A stretch of 64,000 bases of DNA, from contig JASHQB010000338.1 of assembly GCA_030037775.1 (NCBI GenBank), positions 1 through 64,000 of the forward strand, in the 5' to 3' direction. Source of the stretch: Candidatus Acidiferrales bacterium. GTDB taxonomy: Bacteria; Acidobacteriota; Terriglobia; Acidiferrales; UBA7541. Below the pieces are notes generated by a model. It saw only the letters and a list, made by a program, of their open reading frames with translations, was not told the origin of the DNA and did not search any database. This document shows, one piece after another, positions 49,467 through 51,829 of this stretch (its first letter is position 1; every line of letters starts with the position of its first letter). Made by a program: the position numbers and the translations under genes.

Positions 49467-49577
49467 CGCGAGACGCCGCAAAACGTGCAGGAACAATTTC
49501 GCGCGAAAAATAATCTACGAAAAAGTTGATTCCGGAGTGGCGCCTCGCGCATCCGTATGGATGAGGAGAAAAATCCG

Positions 49578-50066
49578 ATGCAACCCAGACTCGACATTAC
49601 GAAAGTAGATCCGAAAGCGTATCAGGCCATGTTCGCGCTGGAAAATTATGTGCACAACTCCGGAATCGAAAAGCCTTTGCTGGAACTCGTGAAGATGCGC
49701 GCCTCACAAATCAACGGCTGCGCGTATTGCATCGACATGCACACGAAAGATGCGCGCGCCGCGGGGGAAACCGAGCAGCGCCTCTACGAGCTGGACGCGT
49801 GGCGTGAAACGCCGTTCTACTCCGATCGCGAGCGCGCGGCTTTGGCCTGGACCGAATCGCTCACCCTCGTTTCACAAACGCACGTGCCCGACGATGTTTT
49901 CGAAGAAGTGAAAAAATATTTCAGCGAAGCGGAAATCGTCGCCCTGACGCTAGCGGTGGTGGCCATCAACGGCTGGAACCGCATCGCCATCTCCGTGCGC
50001 GCCGTCCCGGGCACTTACCAGCCGCAGACGCACACGCAGCAGCCCGCAGCGCACAAGACTGCCTGA
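49578..50066 (+). CDS. Carboxymuconolactone decarboxylase / AhpD-like protein
   Basis: LLELVKMRASQINGCAYCIDMHTKDARAAGETEQRLYEL: CxxC-xxxH AhpD core. Confidence 0.9.
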   Translation: MQPRLDITKVDPKAYQAMFALENYVHNSGIEKPLLELVKMRASQINGCAYCIDMHTKDARAAGETEQRLYELDAWRETPFYSDRERAALAWTESLTLVSQTHVPDDVFEEVKKYFSEAEIVALTLAVVAINGWNRIAISVRAVPGTYQPQTHTQQPAAHKTA

Positions 50067-50412: not shown

Positions 50413-50817
50413 CTACTTTTTGTCGCGGGGCTTCAGGTCGAGGGCGGCGGAGTTCATGCAATAGCGCAGACCGGTAGGCGCCGGGCCGTCGTCAAATACG
50501 TGGCCGAGGTGGGCGCCGCACTTGGAGCAGCGTGCTTCGGTGCGCGCCATGCCGTAGCTCGAATCTTTGTGCTCCTCGATTTTGCCGGCGTCGGCGGGCT
50601 GATAGAAGCTGGGCCAGCCGGTTCCGGAGTCGAATTTCGCCGAGGAATCGAAGAGCGGCTCACCGCAACAAACGCAGTGGTACGTTCCCGCGTCATGGTT
50701 GTCCCAATACTTGCCGGTGAAGGGCGGCTCGGTTCCGGCTTCGCGAGTGACGTGATATTGCTCGGGCGTGAGCTGGCGCTTCCAATCCGCTTCGTTTTTT
50801 TTCGTTTTCTCTGCCAT
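50413..50817 (-). CDS. msrB: Peptide-methionine (R)-S-oxide reductase
   Basis: [47 protein letters not shown]...[19 protein letters not shown]...RYCMNSAAL. Confidence 0.95.
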
Positions 50818-50998
50818 GTGCCATGCTCCCATTTTCAAGATGCCAGTCGAAGTTTCTGGGCTGGTATCGTGCAACGTCCGGAGAACAATTCTAGCCCAGA
50901 TTTCCAATTTGAGCTTGCACCAACGAATATTTGACGACACGAGTTTCGGCGAGGCGGGGTTACAATGCGTGGAACTTCAATTGGAAGGAGGTCAAGCC

Positions 50999-51829
50999 AT
51001 GTCCCCGCTTGACAACTCGCACTATCGTCGCAGTCGCAGAGATGTTCTGAAGTCGAGTACACTGGCCCTGCTTCCTCTCGCGATCCCTTCGGCGAATGTT
51101 TCTCGGCCATCCGAGCAGCCAATGACCGCGAATGGCGGCACCGATCCCTACCCAATTCCCTGGCTGGACAAGTTTGGCGATCACAACCAGGCCGCCGGCC
51201 CGAACAGCGAACCGATTCACATCTTTCATTTCAAAGGCCGAGTCGTCCGCTGCAACGCGTTCACAGGAATGGGAACCGACAACCACGGAAACCGCATCGC
51301 GTTTGGCGCTCCGTCCACGGACTACGCGATCATGCACGGAGCGTATTGGGCGGCGCGGACGGAACAGCACGGCAGCTTCGTGCACATATGACACACGATG
51401 TTTCGGGGACAGGTCGTCCCCGCCAACGAAGTGCATGATTTTCACCCGGCTATCTCGCCTTCAGGGCTTTTCTGGACCGTCCCGATTCCCGCCGGCGGCC
51501 TGACAATCAGTGGCGACGGCAATTCCATGACGGTCGAAATGCGAAATGTCCACCTGATCGATCAGCCGAAATTTCCTGCTCTGGATTCCATCGGCACTCC
51601 GGCAAGGATGAGCTTTAAGCTTGTCTGCAAATCAACCGGGGAGCCCGTTAAGTATGAGGACGCATCGAAACATTTTCGCTTCACAGGGTATAAGGCCGCG
51701 TGCCAGCTGGAAGCGCAAGTCGAAGTGCCTTCGCTCGGCTTTTCCTGGAAGTCCGATCCGCTCAGCACGTCGAAGTCCGGCTTCGGGATTATTGGGGAAG
51801 AGGTCAACGGGCGCTACTACGACGGTTGA
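50999..51829 (+). CDS. Tat-signal protein with one in-frame TGA at 51389-51391: candidate selenoprotein or nonsense-interrupted gene
   Basis: ORFs 50999..51391 and 51398..51829 are in the same frame, separated only by TGA CAC ACG; RRSRRDVLKSSTLALLPLAI Tat-like signal. Confidence 0.6.
51404..51422 (+). promoter_or_regulatory. SECIS-like hairpin downstream of in-frame TGA
   Basis: CGGGGAC-AGGTC-GTCCCCG; 19 nt between the TGA and the loop. Confidence 0.4.

Follow-up and report, generated by a model that had tools for sequence, protein, structure and literature searches.

A candidate selenoprotein family of Acidobacteriota with a predicted Tat signal, a conserved in-frame TGA and a covarying SECIS-type hairpin

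The window, i.e. the whole stretch of 64,000 nucleotides of Candidatus Acidiferrales DNA that was analysed, carries on its plus strand a reading frame (50999-51829) of 276 codons plus a terminal TGA (51827-51829), interrupted by one internal stop only, the TGA at 51389-51391. The original prediction, made from the sequence alone, described a single in-frame TGA in a 276-codon frame with a Tat signal, which held, and proposed a candidate exported selenoprotein, which is supported here by the conservation of the TGA, the covariation of the hairpin that follows it and the presence of the Sec genes. The features of the locus are as follows.

50985..50992, plus strand: Shine-Dalgarno-like AAGGAGGT, strong, 6 nt upstream of the ATG, read from the sequence
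50999..51829, plus strand: predicted selenoprotein gene, supported by its sequence, by full-length homologs and by a dN/dS of about 0.06-0.17 after the TGA
51032..51052, plus strand: SRRDVLK (residues 12-18), the twin-arginine motif of the predicted Tat signal, with RR in 51/56 homologs
51389..51391, plus strand: in-frame TGA, predicted selenocysteine codon (residue 131), TGA in 59/60 homologs that cover the site
51404..51422, plus strand: bacterial SECIS-type hairpin, stem CGGGGAC/GTCCCCG, loop AGGTC

The hairpin is composed of the arms CGGGGAC (51404-51410) and GTCCCCG (51416-51422), which build a perfect 7-bp stem, and the loop AGGTC (51411-51415), with 12 nt between the TGA and the stem and the loop beginning at the 20th nt, exactly as had been claimed. 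The AGGUC loop resembles the loop of fdhF. At the N terminus, the characteristics of a Tat signal, namely a twin-arginine and a hydrophobic segment, are met by SRRDVLK followed by STLALLPLAI, and TAT profile models match distant homologs, albeit weakly. The window protein is predicted from this signal sequence to be Tat-exported, and export by this route, in line with the RR found in 51/56 homologs, suggests folding before export, possibly with a ligand. A paralog with a Sec-type signal peptide in place of the Tat signal was observed at locus L071 (G495:C14), and in each of two genomes, G495 and G030, the family has as many as three loci.

Homologs were searched for through a scan of a genome collection, in relatives, in 396 genomes of the phylum, in 89 members of one family and in 399 of a second family, for a total scope of roughly 860 Acidobacteriota genomes; other phyla were not exhaustively covered. 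The genome-collection scan yielded three close relatives, which are Acidobacteria MAGs with a TGA at the site in all cases, and family matches are present in 59 Acidobacteriota genomes. Identity to the window protein ranges from 19 to 71% (50-71% for close relatives, 19-29% for distant ones). The tree resolves two clades with 100% support each, labeled as LTxF (24 members, including the window gene) and LD (32 members). Six partial matches limited to the Tat region (L041-L044, L068 and L069) were not accepted as homologs. The site is spanned by 60 distinct sequences, 59 of which show TGA and one CGA at the same codon.

A first rival explanation is that the TGA represents a nonsense mutation, a pseudogene or a sequencing error in one genome. 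It is favoured by the fact that TGA is one transition away from CGA, the codon found in one homolog (L100, G782:C477). Against it, 59/60 homologs display the same TGA in the independent assemblies of about 59 species, hence a sequencing error, a caveat of the original prediction, is untenable. Moreover, purifying selection is found on both sides of the TGA and persists past it, with a post-TGA dN/dS of about 0.06-0.17, bearing in mind that several pairs approach saturation at synonymous sites. Finally, the CGA copy is itself a degraded gene or pseudogene: two more stops, a TAA and a TGA, interrupt other parts of its sequence, and its hairpin is still recognisable. The explanation is practically ruled out, and homologs with Trp, Arg or Gln at the site, which had been put forward as a possible refutation, do not appear beyond this degraded copy. 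No Cys form was found at the site in the 60 sequences from roughly 860 Acidobacteriota genomes, and the support for selenocysteine rests on the conserved TGA and not on the Sec/Cys pair, which is usual but not defining.

A second rival holds that there are two genes, the first truly ending at the TGA and the other starting at the ATG at 51398. In its favour, the window does present an ATG at the third codon past the TGA. However, the homologs do not preserve this ATG, and nearly all of them show Leu, Val, Ser or another residue there; furthermore, the distance from the TGA to the hairpin is under constraint, and both halves build one predicted domain. We regard this possibility too as virtually eliminated.

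The hairpin was analyzed against the published bSECIS criteria (PMC13188914), i.e. a loop of 3-9 nt, a stem of 4-16 bp, a G in the first two loop positions, a distance of 16-37 nt from the UGA and an MFE of at most -7.5. These are satisfied by 58/59 TGA genes, but also by 52% of background in-frame positions in the same genes. Since about half of the background passes, the loose criteria were dropped as sole evidence and a stricter stem test was made, which asks for a perfectly paired stem of 6 bp or more, a G early in the loop and the same spacing; it is passed by 82% of the sites vs 7% of the background. The hairpin energy shows the same trend, with a median of -13.0 at the sites vs -7.8 in the background (Mann-Whitney p=3e-18). 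When codons are shuffled keeping the protein, p<0.05 is obtained in 23/31 sequences, which are related, so that the combined chi-square cannot be read as a genuine probability; the window hairpin, compared with codon-preserving randomisations, yields p=0.017.

Concerning covariation, ten close relatives aligned without gaps score 0.294 vs 0.155 when shuffled (0/500), slid controls remaining at or below 0.111. Across groups the stem sequences differ entirely (CGGGGAC, AGGGACC, GAGCCC, CCGGTCC, GCCGACG and others), and these unrelated stems still pair at every position in 25-30 of 30 cases, with the caveat that the underlying table of arms is centred on hairpins and hence biased towards structure. 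Nearly all members show a GC-rich, covarying hairpin 17-26 nt past the UGA, with loops such as GGC, GGU, GUU, GUC, AGGUC, GGUC and similar. The hairpin is weak in L104, and displaced by insertions in L063, L066 and L018. The evidence thus draws its weight from conservation and covariation, not from the loose criteria.

It should be noted that in-frame insertions put the conserved hairpin 26-44 nt past the TGA in six loci (L063, L066, L018, L083, L085 and L091), and that L063 and L066 show a second hairpin in between, which may test the tolerance of SelB to spacing.

The window genome (4.19 Mb, 374 contigs, 91% complete) possesses all four genes of the selenocysteine machinery, whose absence would have refuted the original prediction: SelA (472.6 bits, E 1e-141), SelB (365.7 bits, E 3e-109, above cut-off), SelD (361 bits, E 6e-108) and a tRNA-Sec (selC) of 65.9 bits, above the gathering score, with a TCA anticodon as read from its sequence. 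The selD gene (L030, G000:C120:4709-5656) presents one in-frame TGA of its own, followed by the hairpin GAGTCCA-GGTCTTT-TGGACTC with the loop 18 nt after the TGA; the same GGUC type of loop is therefore used by a known selenoprotein in the same genome, and from this TGA and hairpin we infer SelD to be a second selenoprotein of the window genome.

Presence of the gene follows that of the machinery. In bacterial family f11, SelA is found in 31/32 genomes that bear the gene vs 155/367 of the others (base rate 186/399, p=2e-10, a value that ignores shared ancestry). In bacterial family f1 it is found in 21/22 gene-bearing genomes, SelA being common in this family anyway. SelA at a convincing score was not found in G435 (97% complete) and G620 (100% complete), both with TGA-containing copies, for which a gap in the assembly or a trait since lost are possible reasons; in G497, an 85%-complete draft with the gene present, the SelA match is weak.

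These data bear on a third rival, according to which the UGA is read as another residue (Trp, Arg or through a natural suppressor) and the hairpin merely aids read-through. A 3' hairpin can indeed stimulate read-through of a stop codon. Against this, the gene's own terminator is TGA, its presence tracks SelA (p=2e-10), the loops carry the G[GU] of bacterial SECIS loops, that of selD from the same genome included, and no intact homolog with a sense codon exists among the sequences found. This explanation is very improbable.

Set against these rivals, it is very likely (probability about 0.94) that TGA 131 encodes selenocysteine and that the gene defines a new selenoprotein family, selenium incorporation being inferred and not measured; neither incorporation nor a full-length product has been shown to date, which limits the claim. 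The decoding mechanism is most probably ordinary, and what is new and unusual is the family itself, apparently Sec-only, predicted to be Tat-exported and outside the thioredoxin fold. Going by what is established for Sec in bacteria, SelB carrying Sec-tRNA-Sec would bind the hairpin and insert Sec at the UGA; the protein would then fold in the cytoplasm and be exported through the Tat pathway.

No family match to the window protein was found in Pfam, PHROGs, PDB sequences or NCBIfam (release 20, including the NF04xxxx selenoprotein models), and a search of plasmids gave no matches. AlphaFold2 with 30 family sequences predicts an all-beta core with a mean pLDDT of 80.8, most of residues 75-276 being above 80, and places Sec131 within the strand 121-135. 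A Foldseek search of this model against the PDB gave no usable match (best E 0.03, TM <0.4), nor did a search with an earlier, poor model (pLDDT 58.7). The family lacks the UxxC, CxxU and UxxT redox motifs, and the test for a thioredoxin-like or UxxC class failed, the predicted fold being all-beta.

Key conserved residues (n=56) are Asp108 and Trp159, present in 56/56 sequences, and Sec131 and His146, present in 55/56, together with D188, E268, N270 and G271. Except for the Sec column, no column shows Cys in more than 22/56 sequences, hence Sec probably works without a conserved resolving Cys. In a tentative proposal, the selenolate would act without such a Cys as a nucleophile or metal ligand, in a setting given by the invariant Asp108 and Trp159 and the near-invariant His146, and its targets may be oxidants outside the cytoplasm, for instance peroxide or hypohalite, a point on which confidence is equally low. 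Since the fold is unmatched, this possible active site rests on conservation alone.

Concerning the genomic context, the window gene is neighboured by msrB (50413-50940, minus strand) and by a CMD/AhpD protein (49557-50066). The original prediction had pointed to these redox genes, whose presence is confirmed; the functional link is unsupported, and the clue was dropped because the neighbourhood is not conserved among homologs. A vanadium-chloroperoxidase-like gene (VCPO/DUF6851/PAP2) lies beside 10/16 members of one LD subclade and 0/40 elsewhere (p=2e-7, which ignores shared ancestry, and some flanks reach only 1.5 kb). The loci are L096, L097, L099, L057, L060, L063, L083, L085, L017 and L113, from several bacterial families. 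The neighbour is always on the same strand as the selenoprotein gene, with a gap of a few hundred nt in nine loci and of about 2.5 kb in L113 (G435), and its domains are PF21167 with PF22778, or PF17897 with PAP2. One example of these proteins begins with a signal-peptide-like stretch and contains an SGH motif.

An oxidant role (peroxide or hypohalite), inferred from conservation and neighbourhood, is possible and should be taken as a lead only. Likewise, we infer with little confidence that one clade is coupled to an exported vanadium-haloperoxidase-like enzyme. A bolder reading, in which a new class of extracytoplasmic selenoenzymes works with vanadium haloperoxidases, a lone Sec in an all-beta domain with no known Cys form consuming or transferring hypohalite, is improbable. 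The rival view of the function is that the selenoprotein has a general redox or metal-binding role outside the cytoplasm, the haloperoxidase linkage being a clade-specific accident. It is supported by the absence of haloperoxidase neighbours from the window gene's own clade (LTxF) and from most LD members, and by five LTxF loci (L036, L048, L051, L052 and L077) that adjoin DUF302 genes instead, in varying orientation, the DUF302 gene at L036 being a fusion with an alpha/beta hydrolase. Against it stand the 10/16 linkage in one clade, the constant strand and the several bacterial families involved. On balance we lean slightly towards this general role.

With the known SECIS-dependent selenoproteins FdhF/FdhA and SelD, the family shares the in-frame UGA, the adjacent short-loop hairpin with an early G and the presence of SelA, SelB, SelC and SelD in the genome, while it belongs to an unrelated protein family, without UxxC, CxxU or UxxT and without Cys homologs found, and with a predicted Tat signal. 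The lack of Cys homologs is shared with GrdA, the glycine reductase selenoprotein A, a bacterial selenoprotein for which no known Cys-containing homologs are reported (PMC1794560); GrdA differs in its CxxU motif and its role in glycine metabolism, whereas the new family has no conserved Cys and is predicted to be exported. The vanadium-dependent chloroperoxidase family (VCPO_N, VCPO_2nd, PAP2) is a genomic neighbour of one clade and not a homolog.

A 2026 catalogue (PMC13188914) lists 119 prokaryotic selenoprotein families in its Table 1; none of these families or of their domain models corresponds to the present one, and the catalogue text contains no mention of Acidobacteria, Tat or haloperoxidases. 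No description of the family was found in the open-access literature searched, subscription papers and preprints being outside its scope. Cys/Sec pairing is a main discovery strategy for selenoproteins according to the same 2026 review (PMC13188914), and deep-Sep drops any candidate that has neither a known Sec homolog nor two or more Cys homologs (PMC12013277), a filter that explains how a Sec-only family could be missed.

A Sec-only family would hence be invisible to methods based on Cys homologs, and we infer that its genes are likely mis-annotated as two truncated ORFs. Most selenoproteins combine a thioredoxin fold with a UxxC motif, and the new family has neither; it would be a case, open to testing, of a reaction that cysteine may be unable to support. 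It would also add a widespread predicted exported selenoprotein to the Acidobacteriota, a major soil phylum, and may point to a possible link between selenium and biological halogenation in soil.
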